A stretch of DNA of 64,000 bases from a virus, in IMG/VR virus record IMGVR_UViG_3300033153_004457, positions 1 to 64,000 of that record. One strand, 5' to 3'. A program made the position numbers and the translations under genes. A model generated the notes under the pieces. The model worked only from the letters and a program-made list of their open reading frames with translations, was not told the DNA's origin and searched no databases. Below, one piece after another: positions 9,591 through 61,580 of this stretch (its first letter is position 1; each line of letters begins with the position of its first letter).

Positions 9591-10661
9591 TTAAAGCTCT
9601 GCGTCTGCTTCGTAAATGCCTCTTACTTGTAATGACTCCCCAACAGATGGAGCCCAACCAGATATTCCACTCACATAGAAAGCTGCCCCGTCTACCGTTT
9701 TGGTTGCGAAACTCGGAGCATATTCAGCAGTTACATTTCCCTTCGTCCACTCCCAAACAGCAGTGAAATCGTCTACTCGCTTGTAGCCAATCATGCCCGG
9801 TGCGACTCTCATAGTCGTGGGGAATTCGAGACTCCCCCAATCAGCAACATTTGCCCCGGTAACAATGACAGAGCCACGGTATAGATTATTGATTTTGACG
9901 AAATACCGCTGACACAAAGCAAGCTCTTGTCCATACGGACGTGGTACGAACGGGGTCGCTGTGTTGCCCGGTTCGAGCTTGACACCCGTGATACGGAATA
10001 TTGCGGTTGCGCTGTCTGTCCAATCCACATTGTTCGGTGAACCTACTTGTGCGTTGAGCGGCTCCGTAACCCATTCATCCATCGGCTGTGCGGTTTGTTT
10101 ATTGGAGCCTACAGCCAGAACTATTCCAATAGCAATTCCTATTCCGGTCCATTCGTCCCATACAATTAGCGAATCTGCAAACGGTATAACGATCTCTTTC
10201 TTCTCCCACACGTTTGCCTGATTGATCGTCATTTCGTGGTAGAATTGTGTGGCCCACGTAGCACCTTTCAAGAACACCGTGTAGATACCGACCTTGGAAG
10301 ACTTGACCCAGAAGGACAACACGCCTGTCTTGTCGTGTAATACTTTCGAGTCATACCCTTCTATGTTGTAGCTGAGGAACACTCTGGAATCGGCACCCGC
10401 TGAACCGATCTCTTTGTTTTCTATTTGTGCCGAACTAGAAAACCCGTCTGGTGCGTCTCCCGAACGAGCGACAATTGGCCTTGTTGAAAATCCGTTGTCC
10501 TTCTGATACCAACGAAAACGATCTACGGGGTGATGATACTCGGCATCATTCAACGTGAACGAACTGCCCCGTTGTGCAATCCGCATGTCACCGTTGATGA
10601 TGACGTTGCGGTCCCAATACAGGGCCTCACGCGGGTCGTGTAGGTTTGCTTGTGCGTCCAT
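9591..10661 (-). CDS. tail fiber-like protein, paralog A of three
   Basis: This 356-residue protein starts with the NVIINGDMRIAQRG motif (about residues 19-32) found at the start of many phage tail-fiber sugar-binding proteins. A jelly-roll-like beta domain follows (conserved WVKSSKVGIYTVFLK and IPFADS). Then comes the hallmark TPFVPRPYGQELALCQRYF near residue 240 and an end in EADAEL. The genes at 10678-11724 and 14319-15266 share all three landmarks, so the three are paralogs. Likely a receptor-binding or fiber-tip protein. The start ATG follows AGAAGGA. Confidence 0.7.
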   Translation of the reverse strand: MDAQANLHDPREALYWDRNVIINGDMRIAQRGSSFTLNDAEYHHPVDRFRWYQKDNGFSTRPIVARSGDAPDGFSSSAQIENKEIGSAGADSRVFLSYNIEGYDSKVLHDKTGVLSFWVKSSKVGIYTVFLKGATWATQFYHEMTINQANVWEKKEIVIPFADSLIVWDEWTGIGIAIGIVLAVGSNKQTAQPMDEWVTEPLNAQVGSPNNVDWTDSATAIFRITGVKLEPGNTATPFVPRPYGQELALCQRYFVKINNLYRGSVIVTGANVADWGSLEFPTTMRVAPGMIGYKRVDDFTAVWEWTKGNVTAEYAPSFATKTVDGAAFYVSGISGWAPSVGESLQVRGIYEADAEL

Positions 10662-10677: not shown

Positions 10678-11724
10678 TTAGAAGTCTGCGTCGGCTTCCC
10701 AATTGAAACCAATTCTTCCTTCTCCCGAAGAAGAAGCTCTCCGCATTTGGAACACGACATTATTCAAATTGTAGACGACCCAACTCGCTTCGTTGGAACC
10801 CCATCCACCATGGGTTACATTGTGAACAAGGTCATCCCCGCGTGTCACCGCCCAGAATTCAAAACCCGGTGTCGTTCTCATTGGTATGGGAAAAACGAAA
10901 CTGTTGGCTATCCTGGCCGGTAGCGCATCCGAATGGTACACCATCCAAAATCCGCTGGTACTCTTGGCCATTATTTGTAAGTACCGTTGACACAGTGCAA
11001 GCTCACTTTGGATGTCCAGGCCAGCCCTGCGGAACGGTGCTTCTGTGCGGTCTCCTAACAGGAGTTGTGCGCCGCCGAATAGGAATTCGTTGTCAACATG
11101 GTCCATGAAGTTGACTTGGTTTGCTGTCGACCACTTGCTCGTTTCTGGTATCCACTGGCCGGGTGATCCTGTTTGAAAGGCACTTCCGGCCATGAAAGCA
11201 ATCATGACTTGTACCCCTGTGCCAGTAGTAACATCCCATACACCATCGGCGTCAAATGTCACCACGAAGTTCTTCCGCACCCACTGATTCAACTCGGACG
11301 CTTCGATTACCATTTCAGTCACGTATGACCGACTAGATGCGTTCCTAAATGTTACGCCATACGTCCCTTCTTTGTTCGTCTTGACCAGCAAGGAAAGCGT
11401 GACTTTCTGGTTTTTCAGATTCGCAAAATCGTACCCTTCTACCGCTTGATAAAGGGTTTGGAAATCCGACGACCCAACCGAGGCATCTATCACCGTGCAA
11501 TCAAGTTTCATTGAGTACACGGAATTGAAACCGCTCAAGCTGAACGGTGGTACGTCAGTCGAACGGGTCCATGTTCGGCTGAATCCCCCTCCGTGTGACT
11601 GTTTCCAACGGTCTGCAACGTAGCCGTTCACCGGCAAACCGCTCGTTCCACGTTGCCAGAAATCCATCATGCCGTTTATGATCCAGTTGCGTTCATGTCG
11701 ATCAATTCTCGGTGTCAAGCTCAT
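10678..11724 (-). CDS. tail fiber-like protein, paralog B of three
   Basis: This is a 348-residue paralog. It has NWIINGMMDFWQRG at residues 13-26, a probable beta-sandwich in the middle (VTLSLLVKTNKEGTYGV), APFRRAGLDIQSELALCQRYL near 228-248 and the C-terminal EADADF. Its first five codons (MSLTP) sit in a 13-bp repeat that also encodes the last residues (LSLTP) of the gene at 12157-13470, as if the two were once continuous. The ATG has an AGGAGAGG Shine-Dalgarno. Receptor-binding role by family resemblance and context. Confidence 0.7.
   Translation of the reverse strand: MSLTPRIDRHERNWIINGMMDFWQRGTSGLPVNGYVADRWKQSHGGGFSRTWTRSTDVPPFSLSGFNSVYSMKLDCTVIDASVGSSDFQTLYQAVEGYDFANLKNQKVTLSLLVKTNKEGTYGVTFRNASSRSYVTEMVIEASELNQWVRKNFVVTFDADGVWDVTTGTGVQVMIAFMAGSAFQTGSPGQWIPETSKWSTANQVNFMDHVDNEFLFGGAQLLLGDRTEAPFRRAGLDIQSELALCQRYLQIMAKSTSGFWMVYHSDALPARIANSFVFPIPMRTTPGFEFWAVTRGDDLVHNVTHGGWGSNEASWVVYNLNNVVFQMRRASSSGEGRIGFNWEADADF
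11711..11723. repeat. 13-bp direct repeat, copy 1
   Basis: The plus-strand sequence GGTGTCAAGCTCA is identical to 12161-12173, exactly 450 bases away. On the minus strand both copies encode SLTP in frame, at the start of the 11724 gene and at the end of the 12157 gene. The pair brackets the 11737-12147 gene. Confidence 0.9.
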
Positions 11725-14318: not shown

Positions 14319-15266
14319 TTACAATTCTGCGTCTAATGAAAAATGATAACCGGCCACGTCTTCAACCCACACGGCTCTTCCGACGTTCAAAGGCTGCTCT
14401 CCGGCAGGAACGATCCACATCCTACAAGACCTTGTACCCGATTCTGCAATCCCTGCGGAAGTAGAATTTACCCAAGAACCCCATAATTCGACATGTGTCT
14501 GCCCGCTGATATGGGCCGTCGGGGGTATTCTCATTTCTGGATAGCGCAAGGTACCGAAAAACGAATATCCCAGATACATATAACCTGATACGATCATCTC
14601 TCCACGGTTTGCGATGCGGTTGTAATACCGTTTACATAACAAGGCTTCGTCTGCTGTCAACCTTGGTATAAAGGGGGATGGCACCGTTCCAATTTCCACT
14701 TTGACACCTGTAAATTCGATGTAGTCGCCAATGGTAACGGGTGCCAATCCACCTGTTTCAGATGATATCCAAAGGTGGACTTGAACCTGTGTTGCCACTG
14801 CACTTAGCGTTACGGGGAGTACAAGCCGTTGCCAGCTTTCGTCGCCGGGATGCGTGGTGTCTTTTGGATGTGACGACACGCCATCGCTCAACATCAATCT
14901 TGCATACGGTGTGTTTGATTTGACATATGCTGACACAACAACGGGAAGACCGGCCAACAGATCGTAGTCTTCAATCATCTGTGATGCCCCATTAACAGCA
15001 TCAAAGGCATCGTCTATCAGTGCTATCTTTATCGACTTACTACCGGACAGTTGCGGCGGTTGCGCGACAGAGACCTGCTGAATAGAACCATCTTCGCCTA
15101 TCTCTTTCGTTTTCCATCTATCGAGTGAATAAGCACCTTCATTGGCACCCAAAGCACTATCAGTGACAGGACTTGTGTAGTCACCACGCTGTGCGATTCG
15201 CATGTCACCGTTGATAATCCAGTTGTTCCGGTCCCTACCAAGAACCGCCAATAAGTTTCTATCCAT
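14319..15266 (-). CDS. tail fiber-like protein, paralog C of three
   Basis: This is the 315-residue third paralog of the genes at 9591 and 10678. It has NNWIINGDMRIAQRG at residues 13-27, a beta-sandwich middle with VVVSAYVKSNTPYARLML, then SPFIPRLTADEALLCKRYY (about 198-216) and an end in SLDAEL. The middle thirds of the three paralogs differ most, as expected for receptor-binding domains under selection. Good Shine-Dalgarno (GTAGGAG). Receptor binding is inference. Confidence 0.7.
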   Translation of the reverse strand: MDRNLLAVLGRDRNNWIINGDMRIAQRGDYTSPVTDSALGANEGAYSLDRWKTKEIGEDGSIQQVSVAQPPQLSGSKSIKIALIDDAFDAVNGASQMIEDYDLLAGLPVVVSAYVKSNTPYARLMLSDGVSSHPKDTTHPGDESWQRLVLPVTLSAVATQVQVHLWISSETGGLAPVTIGDYIEFTGVKVEIGTVPSPFIPRLTADEALLCKRYYNRIANRGEMIVSGYMYLGYSFFGTLRYPEMRIPPTAHISGQTHVELWGSWVNSTSAGIAESGTRSCRMWIVPAGEQPLNVGRAVWVEDVAGYHFSLDAEL

Positions 15267-51697: not shown

Positions 51698-52681
51698 TCA
51701 TGCCATGTCCACGTAACATTCACATCTGAAATGGAATGATGGCAGTCTTGGCTTTCCGTCGTTCAATAGTTTCTCGGCTGCGGCCTCTTTGGCGGGCGAG
51801 TTCGCACCTGGCACGTCGAAATGGAATGAAGGCTGTGCGGCTTTCAAGTCCTCTTTCGTTTCAGCGTTCAGCATTTTTTCCAGATGGTTCAAGCCGCGAC
51901 GAACCGTGAACTCTTGACCGTCCATGCTGATACAGCCAATACATGTCCGGTTCGTCTTGAGACTGCGAACGACATACCGCATAGCGCCCGCGTCATTCAT
52001 GGCGTACAGCGAAGACGATGTACGCGAAAACTGAGCCTGTGTTTCTGCCAAGCCGCTGAAATATTGTCCAGCCGTTCCACGGAAACCCGGTGGTATCACT
52101 TTGCTCTCAAGAGCACCGGGTTTCAAGCGAAAGGCTTTCTCCAAGTCCTTCTTTACTGCGACACCCGTTTCTTCCAGGGTAAGACCGCGCTCGAACACGT
52201 TGACCCGCACGCTTTCTGCGACGGTCGCCTGTACACTTTCCGAGTAAAACGAAGCGGTGGACCAACCCGTTTGCCGCTCGATGGCTGCAATGGCTTCTGT
52301 GTCGGCTTCAGACCAGAAACCGATGCCAATTTTCGGTGCCTTTTTGGCTTTCTCTACAGCCTTTAATTTCATACGTTTGATGGCATCGACTTTCGCGAAG
52401 CGGTACAGGTATTCTATGTCCGCTGAAATTCGCTCTTCGACGTTGCCTTGGAACTGGCCCATACGTTTATCTACCCTTGCTAAGAAAGCGTTGACAGCCG
52501 ACTTCGTGCGCTTCAGTTTTCCGGCTTGCTTTATCAGCGGAAGGGCCAAGTCACGCCATTCAGATGTGAGGTAAAGACCAAGGGCAGGTATGACGGTTGT
52601 ATCCTTCGGCTCTCTCTTCTTCCTTTTATCGACGAGTATAGCAAATATCTTTAATGTTTTCAATCGGTCTTGTACGTTCAT
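51698..52681 (-). CDS. Mu gpF-like head morphogenesis protein
   Basis: This is a 327-residue protein. The C-terminal third has the Mu gpF family signature: TCIGCISMDGQEFTV, then a stretch ending in SFHFRCECYVDMA, where Cys and His usually bind zinc. The N-terminal half is helical (WSEADTEAIAAIERQTGW region near 115-140). Such proteins are minor capsid proteins ejected or used in head assembly. It follows the portal-side cassette. The start is ATG 52681 with a weak GAGGG. Confidence 0.82.
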   Translation of the reverse strand: MNVQDRLKTLKIFAILVDKRKKREPKDTTVIPALGLYLTSEWRDLALPLIKQAGKLKRTKSAVNAFLARVDKRMGQFQGNVEERISADIEYLYRFAKVDAIKRMKLKAVEKAKKAPKIGIGFWSEADTEAIAAIERQTGWSTASFYSESVQATVAESVRVNVFERGLTLEETGVAVKKDLEKAFRLKPGALESKVIPPGFRGTAGQYFSGLAETQAQFSRTSSSLYAMNDAGAMRYVVRSLKTNRTCIGCISMDGQEFTVRRGLNHLEKMLNAETKEDLKAAQPSFHFDVPGANSPAKEAAAEKLLNDGKPRLPSFHFRCECYVDMA

Positions 52682-52696
52682 ACCTGTACGGCCCTC

Positions 52697-53851
52697 TTAC
52701 CATTTGCCAGAAAGTGCCAGCTTTTTGATTTTCTCGAAATCGTTCCTGTCGGCCATGTCTTTTCCAAGGAACTTTTTGACCTTTACGAAGTTTCTACCGA
52801 CGAACCTTACCATCGCAGAAAACTCTTCTGGGCTACTTCCAAACATACCTATTTGGAAATCAAAACAGTTAATAAAATCGACAGGACCGGCTCGTAATGT
52901 GAATAACTTCTTAGCGTAAAGATGCCACCCTTTCGCTGTACCGCCCGTCTCTAGGTTCCTGTAGATCATCGGTTTCACTTTATGATTATGATTTTTGGTA
53001 ATGACATTCAGTCGATGCCAGATTTCTTCCGGCGTATCATTGAAACCGTAAAGCATATACCAACGGCCTTCGCTTTTCATTCCGTGTTTCGTTATCAGGT
53101 CCAAAGTCTTGGTAGCGGCTTTCTCTACACCTTTACTGTCCCAAGAAAACCGAACAACCGGTATTTGTTGTCGGTGTCTTTTGAACAATTCGACAAAGCG
53201 TTCATCCTTCGCGAACATTCTACAATCGAGTCCTTGGTTGAAATCGATTGTCATTCCACGCTTGGTCAGTTCGGCTAGAACGCCCTCTACCCAATCGTAA
53301 CCGCATGCCAGTATGTTATTGTCCATCGAAATAAAATGCGTGTGGCCTGGTGCCAAATAGTTTTTCCAGTGCTCATTCTTGTACAGTTTGCCTTCTATTT
53401 TCGGCACGACACACCACGGACATTTCCGAGTGCAGCCACGAGAGGTAAAACCAAATGAGAAGTCCATACCTAATGCCTCGTAGCAGGGCGTCTCATGCTC
53501 GAACTCAGATTGGAGGCCCGTAATTACTTCCGCACCGGGAACGTGTTGCTCGAACAGTTCTGGTTTCAGGGTAGCCGTCACACCTCCGATTTTGATTTTC
53601 GCTTTTTTGAACTTGCTCTGAAAGGACCGGATGTAGCCGATGTCCTTTTCCAGATTGAAAAGAAAGATCGGAGAAAAACAAATCTCGTCCGGTACGAAAT
53701 TCTTAGGTGTCCTCTTGCACGAGGTAATTCTTACATCGTTACCGATTCTCTTTTCATACGAATACAGTTTGAGCAGACCGAGTGGTGATGGGAACTGCAT
53801 TCCCTTGCTCTTCGTTGAGTGATCGAGATGTACTAACAGAGTCTTTGTCAT
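52697..53851 (-). CDS. radical SAM protein, tandem copy 2
   Basis: This is a 384-residue radical-SAM protein. The CX3CX2C motif GCTRKCPWC puts its cluster cysteines at 140, 144 and 147. The N-terminal about 110 residues look like a Rossmann-type (B12-binding-like) domain, with TLLVHLDHS and IKIGGVTAT. Other features are DNNILACG, GRWYMLYGFNDTPEEIW and a C-terminal KKLFTLRAGPVDFINCFDFQ. It aligns along its whole length with the neighbouring copy at 53861-55009. Radical-SAM enzymes use a 4Fe-4S cluster and S-adenosylmethionine; substrate unknown. The ATG follows AAGGGA, nine bases after the upstream stop. Confidence 0.88.
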   Translation of the reverse strand: MTKTLLVHLDHSTKSKGMQFPSPLGLLKLYSYEKRIGNDVRITSCKRTPKNFVPDEICFSPIFLFNLEKDIGYIRSFQSKFKKAKIKIGGVTATLKPELFEQHVPGAEVITGLQSEFEHETPCYEALGMDFSFGFTSRGCTRKCPWCVVPKIEGKLYKNEHWKNYLAPGHTHFISMDNNILACGYDWVEGVLAELTKRGMTIDFNQGLDCRMFAKDERFVELFKRHRQQIPVVRFSWDSKGVEKAATKTLDLITKHGMKSEGRWYMLYGFNDTPEEIWHRLNVITKNHNHKVKPMIYRNLETGGTAKGWHLYAKKLFTLRAGPVDFINCFDFQIGMFGSSPEEFSAMVRFVGRNFVKVKKFLGKDMADRNDFEKIKKLALSGKW

Positions 53852-53860
53852 TCGCTTCCC

Positions 53861-55009
53861 TTACCATTTACCAGAGTTTGCCAGCTCTCTGATTCTCTTG
53901 AAATCGTGCTCGTCGGCCAGATCCTTTCCGATGTACTTTTTGACCTTCGCGTGATTCCTACCGACGAATTTCATTAGGTTCATGAATTCTTCAAAGTCCT
54001 TTCCGAACAGACCTCTCTGGAAATCGAAACAGTTGATGATGTCAACAGGACCGGCTCTCAGGGTGAACAACTTTTTGGCGTGCGAGTACCAACCGGTTGG
54101 AGCCTTACCCGTTGTCAAGTCTCTGTAGATCATCGGCTTGACTTTGTGTCCATAGTCGGTGATAGTTTTTATTCTATTCCAGATTTCTTCCGGCGTGTCT
54201 TTGAAACCGTAAAGCATATACCATCGACCTTCGCCGCTGTACTTGTGAGACTTCATCATTTTCAAAGTCTCAAGAGCGGCCTTTGACGAGGCTTTGCTGT
54301 CCCACGCAAACCTGATGATGGGCATATGTTTCTTATACTTTTTGAAAACTTTGATGAAGCCTTCGTCTTTTACGAACAGCCTACAATCCAACGCTTGATT
54401 GAAATCGACTGTCATGTTTCTTTCTGACATCTCGGATAGAACTTCTTCCATCCACTCTGGCCCGCACGCGAGAACGTTGTTATCTATCGCGATGAAATGC
54501 TTGTGACCCGGTGCCAAAGCGTTCTTCCATTTTTCGTTCGTGTAAATCTTACCTTCGATTTTTGGAACGACACACCACGGGCATTTTCTGACGCATCCAC
54601 GCGATGTAAAACCGAAAGAGAAATCCATTCCCATCGCCTCGTAACAAGGCGTTTCATCGTCAAACTCAGGCTGAAGGCCGGTGAATATTTCGGCCTCTGG
54701 AATGTGCTCTTTGAAAAGCTCTGGTCTCATGGTAGCCATTACGCCACCGATTTTGATTTTCGCTTTCTTGAACCTGTTCTGGAAAGCGCGAATGTAACCG
54801 ATGTCCTTTTCTGCATTGAACAGGAACAGCGGTGAGAAGCAAATCTCATCGGGCGTGAAATCCTTCGGCGTTATTTTACACGAAGTGATCCGCACGTCAT
54901 CGCCAAGCCGCTTCCGGTACGAGTACAGTTTGAGTAGGCCAAGCGGCGATGGAACTTGCATGCGCTTGCTCTTCGTCGAGTGGTCAAGGTGTACTAACAA
55001 GGTCTTCAC
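53861..55009 (-). CDS. radical SAM protein, tandem copy 1
   Basis: This 382-residue protein aligns with its neighbour along the whole length; roughly 60 percent of positions look identical by eye. The cluster motif GCVRKCPWC places Cys at 139, 143 and 146. The start is GTG 55009, which overlaps the ParB-like gene's stop (GTGA) and has GGAG eight bases upstream; an in-frame ATG at 55045 lies inside the ParB-like gene. The two copies and the ParB-like protein form one translation unit. It probably modifies DNA, RNA or protein by radical chemistry; substrate unknown. Confidence 0.88.
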   Translation of the reverse strand: MKTLLVHLDHSTKSKRMQVPSPLGLLKLYSYRKRLGDDVRITSCKITPKDFTPDEICFSPLFLFNAEKDIGYIRAFQNRFKKAKIKIGGVMATMRPELFKEHIPEAEIFTGLQPEFDDETPCYEAMGMDFSFGFTSRGCVRKCPWCVVPKIEGKIYTNEKWKNALAPGHKHFIAIDNNVLACGPEWMEEVLSEMSERNMTVDFNQALDCRLFVKDEGFIKVFKKYKKHMPIIRFAWDSKASSKAALETLKMMKSHKYSGEGRWYMLYGFKDTPEEIWNRIKTITDYGHKVKPMIYRDLTTGKAPTGWYSHAKKLFTLRAGPVDIINCFDFQRGLFGKDFEEFMNLMKFVGRNHAKVKKYIGKDLADEHDFKRIRELANSGKW

Positions 55010-55617
55010 TTTTCGCTCCGTAGCAAGTCGAGGACTTTTTGCCATGGGTCCGGTTTTCGTTTTTCCAATTCGGCTTCGATGTCTTGTACGAGGTCCGCAG
55101 GAATGTCGAGAATCTTACCCGTATCAGTACCGAAGATTGAAACGTCTGTCGGGTTCATACCATCGTTTTCCAGCGTTTTCTTCATCTCGTCAAGATCGAT
55201 GTCCGAGAAGTCGAACGATTCCATCACCTCGTCGAAGTCGAGCTTTGCGTCTTTCATGTAGTCCGTGAGGCTTGTGTCGGACATCTTTCCGTACTGACTT
55301 GTGATTGCAAGTAGCTTGTGCTTCGCCTCTTTCATGGACTTCGCTTCTACCCATATCACGGGGAGCTTTGGAACTTCGTGTCCCTCTTCGCCTAGACGCG
55401 CAATGGTTCTATGGCGTTGATGTCCGTCGAGCAAATAATGTTTTCCAGCATTACGCCAGATAAAAAACGGTGCCGAGAAACCGTACTTGAGAATTTCCTT
55501 ACTGAGCTTTTCGTAATTCTCTTCCGACAGGCTTTTCAATTCACCCTGGAATGGCACCATTTCGTCGAGGGCGAGTACGTCCGCGCCCTTGCATTTGATT
55601 CTGATTTTCGTTGTCAT
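55006..55617 (-). CDS. ParB-fold (ParB/sulfiredoxin-type) protein
   Basis: This is a 203-residue protein. The N-terminal about 90 residues have the ParB N-terminal fold: NYEKLSKEILKYGFSAPFFIW then the signature YLLDGHQRHRTIARLG, where DGHQRHR is the nucleotide-binding/catalytic loop. The C-terminal part has the helix-turn features (SLTDYMKDAKLDFDEV, FDFSDIDLDEMKKTLE) typical of ParB domains fused to DNA methyltransferases, but no methyltransferase follows; two radical-SAM genes do. The start ATG overlaps the portal stop. It may bind DNA or act as a partner for the radical-SAM proteins. Confidence 0.82.
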   Translation of the reverse strand: MTTKIRIKCKGADVLALDEMVPFQGELKSLSEENYEKLSKEILKYGFSAPFFIWRNAGKHYLLDGHQRHRTIARLGEEGHEVPKLPVIWVEAKSMKEAKHKLLAITSQYGKMSDTSLTDYMKDAKLDFDEVMESFDFSDIDLDEMKKTLENDGMNPTDVSIFGTDTGKILDIPADLVQDIEAELEKRKPDPWQKVLDLLRSEK

Positions 55618-57422
55618 TTTTCAACCTCGTCGTCTGGAAATTGGGCAGATGGATGTATGAGCGCATCGGCCAGCGGGTCGATGCCAAGCTCGATACCAAG
55701 GCTATGCAACAGTATCTTCTCGATCTTCTCGAATGCGTTACCGTCATCGGCCTTTGCTACCGGTTGCTTTGGCACTTGTCCGGAATTCGGTGCGACCGTT
55801 CCCGTTTGTTGGTTTCCTGCTGTAGCTCCTGCGAGACCGACGAGAGTAAGGGAAAGTGGAATGTCAGGATCGAAACCGTGTTTGTCTTTGTCGTATTTCG
55901 GTATCTCACGTCCGAGAACATCGCTCATAACTTCGACTGCGAGATTCGGAGATACCGCGCCCGCCTTGTCGGTTCCAAGAATCTTCACAAGGTCTTGGTC
56001 GTTCGTGACGTTCGCGCTGTTCGACTTGAACGTGTGGTGCTTCATGTTGAATTCGGTTCGCAAGAAACGATTCATCCATACATCGAAGTCACCGCGCTCT
56101 GGGCTGAACACTTGCTCATCCGCGAGCTTCCGGCTTTCCTGTGCGGTCGAGCGGTTGTAGTCTTCCGACTTGCCAACGAAGATCGGGGGCAACCGAAAAG
56201 ACCGGCGTACCTTTTCGCCGTTGTTCTTGTCGTAATCCTGAAAGAGTTGGTCTTCTTTCTGTGCGCCCGACACATCTTTGATTTCCATCTTCATCGTGCC
56301 GGGGTTGATCTGTCCTTCTTCTGCGGGTTCGGCCTCGATGATAAGGACGCTTGAGCGGTTACTGTTGCCCGCTACACGGGTTTCGATGAACTCTTCGACA
56401 CGCTTTACACTGTCGCCTGTGAGCTGTCCGTTAGACACCAAGATAATCATGGAAGGAATGTTATTGTTCTCGAACGTCACGAAGTTGATTTCGTCCGCGC
56501 TTCGGGAACCGTATATGCTAAAGAGGTTTCCGATGAATCGCGGTAAGCAATACGGCGTTCGCGATGACTTGATGGCACCGAAAGTCTTGGCCGAATTCGC
56601 ATACGGCTTGCTCACTTTCGTGCCGTCTTTCAGTGTTCCGTTCGTGACGGCTTGACCGGTCTTCGGGTCGATGTCCCGTGGGTCTCCCCACTCTTTCAAA
56701 TAAACAATTTTCTCGGCTACCTTGTGTGCGATGCGACGAAAACGTTTCTTGAAACGCCGCTCTTCCATTTTCTTGGTAGACTTGTTGTAATACTTGATAC
56801 GAGCTTCCGTGAACTCCTTGTCCATCTTGGTCCAGCGGGCAAGGTGCGGTTCGATTCGCATCAAGGAACTCACACCGGCTTTCTTAGCATACGGTATGAT
56901 TTCCCACCAGCCATCACCCGTCTCTTCGGTGTCCTGGCGTGTCATCTTTCTCAGCTTGGTAATGTCCTCGTCGAAGTTCACGTTGTCGAGAAACCCTTCG
57001 AGGTTTCCACGCTCTGCTAGAACTTCCTTTTTGATCGCAGCGGTTCTTTCGGCTTCGTCCATGGCCGTCTCTACCAGGCGATACCCGAACCCGTCGATGT
57101 TCGTAACCATCGCATCAACGCACTGTCCAAGCTCTGTATTATTTTCACGAAGCGTGGAAAGGTGGAGCGTCGGGTACGGTGGGTGAATGATATTGCCGTG
57201 ACCGCTGAACGCCGGGTCTTGCTCCATCTGTTGTGATTGCTCTTCGCCAAGCGCCCTGACAATGGTGGCTTTCAGAACCTTCATGTTTTCGTGACTTTGC
57301 TTGGAACCGCTACCCGCTACTTTACCGACTGCGGTTACGCTTCCCTTTGATGCGCTGTCGACCTTTGCTGGTACGGCTGACGCCGATAGTTTCGCCGGTG
57401 CTGGTTTCGTTTTTCGAGCCAT
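55614..57422 (-). CDS. portal protein
   Basis: This is a 602-residue protein next to the terminase. I start at ATG 57422 (MARKTKPAP), eight bases after GGAG; a longer in-frame start has no Shine-Dalgarno. Portal-like features include TLHLSTLRENNTELGQCVDAM, ETGDGWWEIIPYAKKAGV, ADEINFVTFENNNIP and the crown/stem-region GEKVRRSFRLPPIFVGKSEDYNRSTAQ. It forms the DNA-entry ring. The first 40 residues are Ala/Lys-rich, probably disordered. Confidence 0.85.
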   Translation of the reverse strand: MARKTKPAPAKLSASAVPAKVDSASKGSVTAVGKVAGSGSKQSHENMKVLKATIVRALGEEQSQQMEQDPAFSGHGNIIHPPYPTLHLSTLRENNTELGQCVDAMVTNIDGFGYRLVETAMDEAERTAAIKKEVLAERGNLEGFLDNVNFDEDITKLRKMTRQDTEETGDGWWEIIPYAKKAGVSSLMRIEPHLARWTKMDKEFTEARIKYYNKSTKKMEERRFKKRFRRIAHKVAEKIVYLKEWGDPRDIDPKTGQAVTNGTLKDGTKVSKPYANSAKTFGAIKSSRTPYCLPRFIGNLFSIYGSRSADEINFVTFENNNIPSMIILVSNGQLTGDSVKRVEEFIETRVAGNSNRSSVLIIEAEPAEEGQINPGTMKMEIKDVSGAQKEDQLFQDYDKNNGEKVRRSFRLPPIFVGKSEDYNRSTAQESRKLADEQVFSPERGDFDVWMNRFLRTEFNMKHHTFKSNSANVTNDQDLVKILGTDKAGAVSPNLAVEVMSDVLGREIPKYDKDKHGFDPDIPLSLTLVGLAGATAGNQQTGTVAPNSGQVPKQPVAKADDGNAFEKIEKILLHSLGIELGIDPLADALIHPSAQFPDDEVEK

Positions 57423-57502
57423 GCTTTTCTCCGTCGTTGGTGTTCCCGTCGTGAACATTCAAATTACATTTAGGATACATCGCTTTCTGACATCCTTCAA
57501 TA

Positions 57503-58990
57503 TCATATTACGCCGAACGTTTTTCGTGGCTTTCTCATTCGCAGGAACGACCCCATTACCGCGAAGTCCAGAGCGTCGAACTCATCGTCGTGTTCCGCGT
57601 CTGGAAATGCTATCAAGTTATCTGTAAACTCAGCCACGCCGTATTTTGGAAAGTACATGAGGCCGTTCTCGAACTTGGCAGAGAGCCGCCACGCCCGTAC
57701 CACCTTGTCCTTGTGGGTCCAGAACGGTTTCACTGGTACGTCTGTCAACGCTGCAAGAATTTGAGCTTGCGAATCCTGGTACGCGTTCGATTCGATGAAG
57801 ACCCGTAACGGGTGGTACTGGTCGCTCTTCTGTCTTATCTTCGAGAAGGTCTGCAAGAAAGACAGGCGTTCGTGGAACATGTCGATCAGAAACATTTGAC
57901 CGAATTCGTTTTTACCAATTGTCGCAATCGCAACGAAATCGGCACTTTCCTTTTGAGATATGGCGAGGTCAACGCCCATGAAAATACGAAGGTCCGGTGG
58001 TATGATTTCATAGTGTTTGATGTGCTCATACTTGAATATTTTACCTTCCATTCCATCGGTATTGTTCTGATAGCCCGCATCGAAGATGATCTTGCCAGAC
58101 GTGCGCCGCTTGGCCTTCAGCCATTCGATACTCAACTTTTCTTCCCAAATCGATTCGCCGTTCGGTCGTATCGCCGGGTAGATATTGTAAACGAAATCCA
58201 TTTCGCTTGGATTGCTAATCGGCATGCGCTTACCGTCTTCACCTCTAACGGAGGAAACGGAAATCAGGTACTCGTACAGGTCGTTCGGGTAATACCGTGT
58301 ACCATGACCCCACATCCGGCCACCGGGTTCGAGTGTCGGGTCGAGAACTTTGAGATACCATATGCGGAGTTTTTCGCGCTGCAATTCGGTGCGCGAATTC
58401 TCTTCGTCTACGAGGTCGTCGAACAGTATCAAATCATAGTGACGACCGACGACAGCGCCGCCAACACCGAGACACGTAATGTTCGATTCCTTTGCGAAGA
58501 TTTTACGTTCCTTGACGTTGATCTCATCGTTGGACCACTTGTTACCCTTCATGTTGCCGAACATCATGATAAACTTTTCATTCGATTCCATGTGATTGAC
58601 AATCTCACGCAGGAATACTTCGGCTTGGGTTTGAGTGTTCGACGATATGAGGATTCGTATATTTGGGTTTCTCAGTAGCTCGTAGAGGGCGCGTGCTGCA
58701 ACGAGTGCAGTTGATTTACCAACACCACGAGGTGCGAGTACGAGTGTTCTGTAATGCCTTTCCTGTCTGCGGAGCATGAGGCGGTGGCACTGTGCTACCT
58801 GATAGCCAAGGACTTCCTTCATCAATATACATACGCGCTCATACGCCGGGATGTCATCGCCTAGTATCAGGTCGCGTAGCTCATCGACTTCGGCAGAGCG
58901 CAACATATTTAATGCGCGTTCGTCCTCTTCTCTTTCTTCAAGTGCCTTGTCGATGTCGGGCGCTTGCTCTGTGTCGTGCGCCTCACTCAT
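57503..58990 (-). CDS. terminase large subunit
   Basis: This is a 495-residue packaging ATPase/nuclease. The ATPase half has Walker A APRGVGKST (86-94) and Walker B LILFDDLVDEE (187-197). The nuclease half has FMGVDLAIS (Asp341), VFIESN (Glu400) and EHDDEFDALDF (Asp472), the RNase H-type acidic triad. It cuts and pumps DNA into heads through the portal encoded by the next gene. The start ATG overlaps the upstream stop. Family assignment is secure from both motor and nuclease motifs. Confidence 0.95.
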   Translation of the reverse strand: MSEAHDTEQAPDIDKALEEREEDERALNMLRSAEVDELRDLILGDDIPAYERVCILMKEVLGYQVAQCHRLMLRRQERHYRTLVLAPRGVGKSTALVAARALYELLRNPNIRILISSNTQTQAEVFLREIVNHMESNEKFIMMFGNMKGNKWSNDEINVKERKIFAKESNITCLGVGGAVVGRHYDLILFDDLVDEENSRTELQREKLRIWYLKVLDPTLEPGGRMWGHGTRYYPNDLYEYLISVSSVRGEDGKRMPISNPSEMDFVYNIYPAIRPNGESIWEEKLSIEWLKAKRRTSGKIIFDAGYQNNTDGMEGKIFKYEHIKHYEIIPPDLRIFMGVDLAISQKESADFVAIATIGKNEFGQMFLIDMFHERLSFLQTFSKIRQKSDQYHPLRVFIESNAYQDSQAQILAALTDVPVKPFWTHKDKVVRAWRLSAKFENGLMYFPKYGVAEFTDNLIAFPDAEHDDEFDALDFAVMGSFLRMRKPRKTFGVI

Positions 58991-59795: not shown

Positions 59796-61580
59796 TCATA
59801 GCATTGCGAGAAATTCGTCTTCGGTGATGACTTGTACGTTTGCGGCGGTCGCCTTCTTGAGCTTGCTACCAGGCTTTTGCCCAACGATGAGGTAGTCCAG
59901 AGACTTACCGAAACCTTTCGGTTCGCCACCGTGTTCTCGTATGAGTCCTTCGTAGTGCGAGCGCGGTTCTCGAAGCGAACCGGTGATGCAGAACTTGAGG
60001 CCGGTGAGCTTCTGTTCTCCACGGTGTTCGGTGCGGCCTGTGGTCCCTAGTGAAGCGAGGGTTTCAACGGTCGGTAACTTGAGCCGCAAACCCGTCCACA
60101 TCCGTTCGGCCAAGGTGTCTCCGATACCGTCGAGCTTTTCGAGGTCGATTTGAGAGAGCTTGTAGAGGTCTTGAAACGTCTCACACTTGTGAGCCTTGAT
60201 TGCGTAGTTCCAAACGGTCGAGCCGATTTCTTGGACGTTCAGAGCGCCCATGAACACGTCGAGTGGAATCTCTTTGAACACCTGAAAGGCAAGGATTTTA
60301 CGAGCCGTGTGAACGCTGACACTACAGGCGTGCATCACATCGCGGTCGGTCAGATTGTAGAGCTTCAGGAGGTCGCCGTAACCCTTACTTGGACAGTCAA
60401 TACCCGAACACCGAAGGAACGCACCCTCTCGTTTAGTGGGACCGCTACAGATAGGACACTCCGTAGGAACGAGGTCCATCACATCGTACAGGGTGCGCTC
60501 TTCTTCCTCTGCCGTGAGACTGCGTTCGACGTGCGGTATGACATCACCTCTACGGCTTACTATCACCCGATCACCGGGTATGATTTTCATCTTCTCCATG
60601 CTGTTCAAGTTGTGCAGTGTCGGTCGCTTCACTGTTACGCCAAGGTCGACCGGTTCGATTACTGCCATAGGGGTCATGGTCCCGTGAGTTCCTTCCATAC
60701 TCCACTCGATTTCGTTGAGCGTGGTTTCGGCTTCTTGGTAAGGGAACTTGACACAGACCTTGAAGCGCGGCCTCTTCTGGTTGTCGTGTCCAAGCTCGAC
60801 CTGATGAGTTGCACCGTCAACGCACAGCACCAGGCCGTCCACATCGAAGTTGATTTCGGCCCGCATGTCAAGTGCCTTGCCGTATTGATACACAAGCTCT
60901 TCAAAGGTATGGATAACGCTGTATTCCACGTACAAGAAGCCGAACGCGTTCAGGTCGTCGAATACCTTTTTCTCGTTCCTCTCTATGCCGTCATAGATAC
61001 CGTAATACATGAGGGTGAGATATTTGCAGTTCCTACCGTCGAGCGCCTTCGCAGCGCCACACGCTCCGTTCCGCTTGTTCGCATATGGGTTGCGGTCCAT
61101 CGTCTCACCGATGTACGAATCGTAATCATCCTGTGTCATAACGATTTCAGCGGACAGGTCGCCGGTCATCGGTCTGTCAAGTTTCGGCCTTACGTTCTGC
61201 ATCTTCAGGACGTTCCGCGTGATGTCTTCACCGTACTCTTCATCGCCCTTGGTAACGGCTCTCACAAGGTTCCCGTGGTTATAGGTCAGTCGAATGCTGA
61301 TACCATCGTACTTCCAACTCCCTGTCAGTAGCGGCGTTCCGGCCTTCGAGTACCACACGCGAAGCGCGGTGAAGTCTTGGTTTCCCTCGTCGTCGAAGGT
61401 CGGAACCTTGTCCAGCGAAGCCATCGGCCTTTCGTGCTTCGCCTTCTCCCACGGGGAGTTCAGAGGAATGGTTGAACTATTTGCGTTTGCGCCGTACCGC
61501 TTGTCGTACTCCTGATCGGTCATGATCGGCTTTTCCTCTGCGTATGCGTTGTCTGCGTCTTTCTTTTTTACGAATCCCAT
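59796..61580 (-). CDS. NAD+-dependent DNA ligase (LigA-like)
   Basis: This is a 594-residue ligase with the full bacterial-type architecture. ITDQEYD-like domain Ia (MTDQEYDKRYG, 20-30) is followed by PMASLDKVPTF (52-62) and the adenylation motif KYDG (Lys90). The OB domain has GDRVIVSRRGDVIPHVE. A four-Cys zinc finger (CPICSGPTKREGAFLRCSG, then CPSKG), helix-hairpin-helix repeats, and a C-terminal BRCT domain (GLKFCITGSLREPRSHYEGL onwards) complete it. It seals nicks with NAD+. It shares the MGFVKKK N-terminus with two other replication proteins. The start ATG follows AGGAG. Confidence 0.95.
   Translation of the reverse strand: MGFVKKKDADNAYAEEKPIMTDQEYDKRYGANANSSTIPLNSPWEKAKHERPMASLDKVPTFDDEGNQDFTALRVWYSKAGTPLLTGSWKYDGISIRLTYNHGNLVRAVTKGDEEYGEDITRNVLKMQNVRPKLDRPMTGDLSAEIVMTQDDYDSYIGETMDRNPYANKRNGACGAAKALDGRNCKYLTLMYYGIYDGIERNEKKVFDDLNAFGFLYVEYSVIHTFEELVYQYGKALDMRAEINFDVDGLVLCVDGATHQVELGHDNQKRPRFKVCVKFPYQEAETTLNEIEWSMEGTHGTMTPMAVIEPVDLGVTVKRPTLHNLNSMEKMKIIPGDRVIVSRRGDVIPHVERSLTAEEEERTLYDVMDLVPTECPICSGPTKREGAFLRCSGIDCPSKGYGDLLKLYNLTDRDVMHACSVSVHTARKILAFQVFKEIPLDVFMGALNVQEIGSTVWNYAIKAHKCETFQDLYKLSQIDLEKLDGIGDTLAERMWTGLRLKLPTVETLASLGTTGRTEHRGEQKLTGLKFCITGSLREPRSHYEGLIREHGGEPKGFGKSLDYLIVGQKPGSKLKKATAANVQVITEDEFLAML

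Follow-up and report, generated by a model that had tools for sequence, protein, structure and literature searches.

In phages, ParB-fold domains are frequently fused to N6/N4 methyltransferases and bind several NTPs (PMC12704722), and one ParB-methylase has been found to nick DNA (PMC5512222). At the locus described here, a ParB-fold protein of this type is encoded without a methyltransferase domain and is followed by two radical-SAM genes, in the head region of a phage genome. We know of no radical-SAM enzyme that has been established as installing a modification on a DNA base; spore photoproduct lyase acts in DNA repair.

Organization of the cassette and its predicted proteins

The window, that is, the whole stretch of 64,000 nucleotides that was analysed, comes from a virus record of 71,121 bp. 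Judging from its sheath, baseplate and gp5-like proteins the phage is contractile-tailed, and most of its genes are carried on the minus strand. The order of genes in the head region is terminase large subunit, portal, ParB, radical-SAM A, radical-SAM B, the gene at 52681-51698, an XkdF-type protease and a virion structural (capsid-like) protein. From the close spacing of the genes, the cassette and its neighbours are likely to be read as a single transcript.

57503-58990, minus strand: terminase large subunit (phrog_38, E=2e-87)
55614-57458, minus strand: portal protein (phrog_12, E=1e-21)
55006-55617, minus strand: ParB-fold protein, 203 aa, a methyltransferase-type ParB domain without the methyltransferase (phrog_498, phrog_620; AlphaFold, Foldseek)
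55408-55428, minus strand: DGHQRHR loop, ParB residues 64-70, the GxxR nucleotide-binding box (sequence)
55006-55009, minus strand: GTGA overlap of the ParB stop and the copy A start (sequence)
53861-55009, minus strand: radical-SAM copy A, 382 aa from GTG (phrog_9298, E=7e-41)
54572-54595, minus strand: CVRKCPWC cluster motif of copy A (sequence)
52697-53851, minus strand: radical-SAM copy B, 384 aa (phrog_9298, E=9e-39)
53411-53434, minus strand: CTRKCPWC cluster motif of copy B (sequence)
51698-52681, minus strand: head-region gene, called Mu-F-like, a label not confirmed by profiles

The gene coordinates, the GTGA overlap, the 9-bp gap between A and B and the CX3CX2C positions (139/143/146 in A, 140/144/147 in B) reported in an earlier note on this DNA were all exact on re-check; the cysteine motif is conserved across 63 relatives. 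The portal and ParB genes overlap by ATGA, and a longer frame of copy A is open to an ATG at 55045 (394 aa). The same note had named a Mu-F-like neighbour. The gene is present, but profile searches with 51698-52681 gave no significant Pfam or PHROG match, and the name goes back to inspection of the sequence.

The window ParB was matched by phrog_498 (E=8.9e-12, positions 30-173), which covers the ParB part and the linker C-terminal to it, by phrog_620 (E=2.9e-10), and by PADLOC MTase_II over the same part as phrog_498. The protein thus resembles the ParB part of phage ParB-methyltransferases, in agreement with the earlier assignment to the methyltransferase-fused type. No methyltransferase domain was matched in the 203 aa by Pfam or PHROG profiles. 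Its AlphaFold model (pLDDT 81) retrieved ParB/Noc/KorB folds in Foldseek searches. The ParB fold is held in common with the ParABS/Noc partition proteins, but the window protein is small and its GxxR box reads GHQR where theirs is GERR; G65 is invariant and R68 nearly invariant among 23 relatives. Pfam profiles gave no HTH match in the window ParB, and no ParA was found among the scanned phage proteins.

Copies A and B are 70% identical as proteins and 50% identical at third codon positions, with dN of ~0.2 and dS saturated. Both keep the residues characteristic of the family in 63 relatives (RGC..KC..C, DxN, DFNQ.xDxR, the D of FAxD and a C-terminal W), save for a few conservative differences. 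The low dN against saturated dS, together with the conserved residues, shows that the duplication is old and that both genes are under purifying selection. The 70% identity, the saturation of silent sites and the retention of nearly all family-conserved residues indicate that both copies have been maintained, and both look active. The sole PHROG family matched was phrog_9298; neither copy matched a curated named family, and both were only sub-threshold for Pfam Radical_SAM (PF04055). Pfam profiles revealed neither a SPASM nor an RRE-type domain in either copy, the defence library gave no match to the radical-SAM proteins, and no window protein matched viperin.

The heterodimer suggested earlier for the twin copies is not a general feature of the family, as most relatives carry one copy. 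The one other true tandem (L013:5941-8512) arose by an independent duplication, and in its second copy the conserved motif DFNQ is lost, IFFA standing in its place. That pair would fit a catalytic/non-catalytic division, which is not applicable to the window pair. A second radical-SAM copy in L022 was rejected as a tandem, being of a different subfamily.

The AlphaFold model of copy A (pLDDT 91.6, pTM 0.88) matches radical-SAM structures; a Rossmann-like domain at the N-terminus is followed by the radical-SAM barrel and by helices at the C-terminus. The nearest solved folds are MtaB, AprD4, CysS and TokK (TM 0.5-0.6), and because the last three are among them the N-domain resembles a B12 domain. 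The Rossmann-like N-domain and barrel are alike in the B12-dependent radical-SAM methylases TokK and CysS and the radical-SAM dehydratase AprD4, but identity to the window proteins is 11-13%. Moreover, the B12-binding profile PF02310 gave no match to A or B at E up to 1, and the DxHxxG motif, which is missing from some B12 radical-SAM enzymes, is absent from both. The N-domain is also shortened or missing in several relatives (L018 has 285 aa). B12 use is thus unproven: of the B12-binding-like N-terminus proposed earlier, the resemblance in fold stands, and profile and motif do not bear it out. The MiaB/RimO/MtaB methylthiotransferases likewise share the cluster-motif context and the core fold with the window enzymes. 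They differ in their UPF0004 and TRAM domains, which were not found in the window enzymes, and no significant profile score was obtained (14.5 bits against the MiaB family profile, whose cut-off is 251).

Several other genes of the record were recorded in passing. The gene at window 59796-61580 resembles an NAD-dependent DNA ligase with a BRCT domain, and the scanned phage genes also encode a DUF932 protein and one that resembles the beta clamp of DNA polymerase III. Three genes (window 9591-10661, 10678-11724 and 14319-15266) have in common a 'NWIINGDMRIAQRG'-like N-terminal segment and are perhaps paralogous tail or receptor-binding proteins. Outside the window, the record has a third gene that resembles radical-SAM genes but is of another type, with CNMTCAHC (record G000 69659-70639; L318:10660-11637; Pfam Radical_SAM 2e-9 in a bulk scan); the gene upstream of it encodes a CxxCxxCC-like iron/zinc-chelating domain.

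Linkage of ParB and radical-SAM genes in other genomes

The only close relatives of the window proteins were found on one other contig (L003), which is 100% identical, so that no close family was at hand for comparison. Relatives (~300 loci) were gathered with the radical-SAM protein as the sole query in phage, viral-contig and genome collections and then searched with a ParB profile, lineages being defined as clusters of the radical-SAM protein at 60% identity (n=124). This set was adopted because a parsimony count on a 75-row tree (70% clustering) was uninformative, few of its rows being ParB-adjacent; nine distant members diverge too far for their alignment to serve in a pattern scan.

Over the 124 lineages, ParB was found in 12 of the 234 kilobase bins covered at 0-1 kb, as against 4 of 778 at 2-6 kb (odds ratio ~10, Fisher p=1.4e-5). 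It directly abuts or overlaps a phrog_9298-like radical-SAM gene in 11 of the 124, on the same strand at 10 of these 11 loci. The pairing sought in other phages thus recurs: a small ParB overlaps the start of the radical-SAM gene also in L167-L171, L174 and L207, where the radical-SAM proteins are ~29-50% identical to those of the window. Overlaps equivalent to GTGA are present in these loci and in L010, and the overlap sequence ATGCGGATTGC is conserved in L167-L171. The genes beside the pair vary. Downstream of it lie a small terminase, GpA and portal in L207, Terminase_3 in L168 and L170 and a phrog_2 terminase in L171; a small terminase lies upstream of it in L174, and the window terminase belongs to phrog_38. 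In L167 the pair adjoins an SNF2-type helicase, with neighbours that by eye resemble RuvC, UDG and RecB/RecA-type proteins. Shortly before the packaging genes of L171 (4512-8131), two ParB genes alternate with two radical-SAM genes, the first of a different subfamily and the second phrog_9298-like, which suggests that ParB and radical-SAM form a modular unit.

Methyltransferases occupy a comparable place in some loci. In NatCom_21982 and its relatives, the upstream gene that overlaps the radical-SAM gene encodes ParB and an N6/N4 DNA methyltransferase as one fusion protein. DNA methyltransferases make up ~14 of 75 immediate upstream genes, compared with 2 of 69 control genes ~4 kb away at the same loci, much of this signal coming from one phage clade. 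PAPS reductase-type PP-loop genes account for a further four of the 75. Two other layouts were seen. The radical-SAM gene of L294 (6986-10269) overlaps a ParB-like gene and has a PAPS reductase-like PP-loop gene two genes on, a possible hint of a sulfur link; HerA-type ATPases adjoin radical-SAM relatives in L004 (6953-10779) and L112 (6259-9194), and a NurA-like exonuclease is annotated in Marinitoga camini virus 1.

Most members of the family, cellular ones above all, have no detectable adjacent ParB. The cellular loci were taken from ~400 genomes of each of the phyla of G001 and G004, with flanks of ~1.5 kb; ParB was adjacent in 1 of 61 such short loci by the phage profile, which misses cellular ParB types. 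Low-scoring matches in these genomes look like MiaB.

A longer gene run was found in bacteria (L121:2218-9329, L128:2227-9575, L165:3436-7324, L120:249-5551, L114:234-4132, some loci being partial). In a member of the Nitrospirae (L121) and in the cultured Geobacter argillaceus (L128) the order is ParB1, a 135-aa protein, SNF2, ParB2, DndB, an unknown gene and, last, radical-SAM. The Treponema version (L120) is without DndB, SNF2-ParB2-radical-SAM lies close to a contig end in Syntrophaceae (L114), and in a second member of the Nitrospirae (L165) the ParB1-nuclease-SNF2-ParB2 part is seen, with the radical-SAM stretch near the end. ParB1 and ParB2 match the phage ParB alignment in profile comparison (E=1e-6), and in L121 the SNF2 helicase and DndB were identified by Pfam at 2.7e-40 and by PF14072 at 2e-13. 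In the 135-aa protein the motif RPDxIG...CIGEAKT, which is of the PD-(D/E)xK kind, is invariant, and by this motif the protein is a candidate nuclease; it gave no match in a PDB sequence search. Restriction systems are laid out in this way. The radical-SAM protein is the obvious candidate for the modifying enzyme, and the operon is a candidate restriction-modification or defence system of an undescribed kind.

Proposed role of the cassette and alternatives

The gene structure, the folds, the conservation of both copies, the linkage of ParB to radical-SAM, the interchange with ParB-methyltransferase fusions and the restriction-like cellular operon are the observations on which an explanation can be built. 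The genomic associations point to nucleic-acid modification, as proposed earlier. We give about even chances to the cassette being a phage module for the modification of nucleic acid, most likely DNA, that would protect packaged genomes from host restriction. The ParB-fold protein would bind DNA and/or NTP and would deliver or license the radical-SAM enzyme, which would modify phage DNA by SAM-derived radical chemistry. The modification would be made late, as the genes lie beside portal and terminase, and the packaged genomes would then resist host restriction; the two radical-SAM copies may be retained because they form a heterodimer or because they serve two sites. We infer DNA as substrate, the chemistry, the role of ParB, the reason for two copies and the anti-restriction purpose from guilt by association. 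The recurrence of the pairing in many unrelated viruses and the restriction-like bacterial cluster suggest that this is probably a new route of DNA marking.

The nearest named relatives, enzymes of the MiaB/RimO kind, raise the alternative that RNA (tRNA or rRNA) is modified, aiding the phage when the host attacks translation. The weak likeness to MiaB/RimO/MtaB in cluster motif and fold, and the grading of whole-genome profile matches into MiaB-sized proteins, are in its favour; RimO itself acts on a ribosomal protein. The window enzymes nevertheless score far under the MiaB cut-offs and are without UPF0004 and TRAM, the neighbours are DNA methyltransferases, SNF2 and ParB rather than translation genes, and the window has no tRNA genes, all of which makes this unlikely. 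Radical-SAM viperins make modified nucleotides, and by this precedent the module could act on nucleotides or be a counter-defence or defence effector in which ParB is an NTPase or nuclease and the radical-SAM enzyme yields an altered nucleotide. This too is unlikely. In its favour are the binding of NTPs by ParB domains, the nicking of DNA by some of them (PMC12704722, PMC5512222) and the PAPS reductase genes near some members, but the window proteins do not match viperin, and the operon with SNF2 and a nuclease-like protein and the ParB-methyltransferase swap suit DNA modification better.

The position of the window cassette between portal and head genes, and of several relatives within packaging clusters, would agree with modification of a head or portal protein by the radical-SAM pair, ParB being an unrelated neighbour. 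The earlier note had suggested a modified head protein; this was not borne out and is quite improbable, for the overlap recurs by unrelated terminases (GpA, Terminase_3, phrog_2, phrog_38), the L167 pair sits in a helicase/recombination module beside SNF2 and RuvC/UDG-looking genes, cellular members are without adjacent head genes, and SPASM and RRE-type domains were not detected. Since the cassette moves among unrelated packaging modules and a DNA-metabolism module, a role on one head protein is hard to reconcile with its distribution. It is very improbable that the radical-SAM enzyme is a host-metabolism (auxiliary) gene next to ParB by chance. Some phages do often carry radical-SAM genes, for example the Campylobacter phages CP220/CPt10 (PMC2853527), but the enrichment of adjacency, the keeping of the gene overlap at ~30% identity and the two conserved copies speak against a chance neighbour.

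Comparison with known systems

Extended to the bacterial operon, the proposal becomes a ParB-guided radical-SAM modification of DNA, serving phages as an anti-restriction cassette. In bacteria it would be the modifying part of a restriction system to which SNF2, the PD-(D/E)xK-like nuclease, DndB and ParB-like proteins also belong. We regard this wider scheme as tentative and somewhat less likely than not. DndB is shared with Dnd phosphorothioation, DndB, ParB-like and SNF2 proteins sitting with the radical-SAM family in Nitrospirae and Geobacter, but radical-SAM superfamily enzymes are no part of Dnd systems (PMC10853773), and no other dnd genes were recognised in the Nitrospirae and Geobacter gene runs. 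A search of the literature open without subscription found no description of the ParB/radical-SAM pair. If correct, the scheme would represent a class of DNA modification and restriction-modification without earlier description, and the pair offers a concrete family, with phages and a cultured bacterium as test subjects. The phage ParB-methyltransferase fusions (phrog_498; N6_N4_Mtase plus ParB domain) are alike in ParB type and C-terminal region, whereas the window ParB has only 203 aa, no methyltransferase and radical-SAM partners. Phage DNA hypermodification and restriction are, to our knowledge, the work of methyltransferases, nucleotide pathways and PP-loop sulfur enzymes. Radical chemistry would join these means of marking DNA through the ParB/radical-SAM pair, which recurs, takes the place of ParB-methyltransferases or occurs together with them, and is found also in a restriction-like operon.
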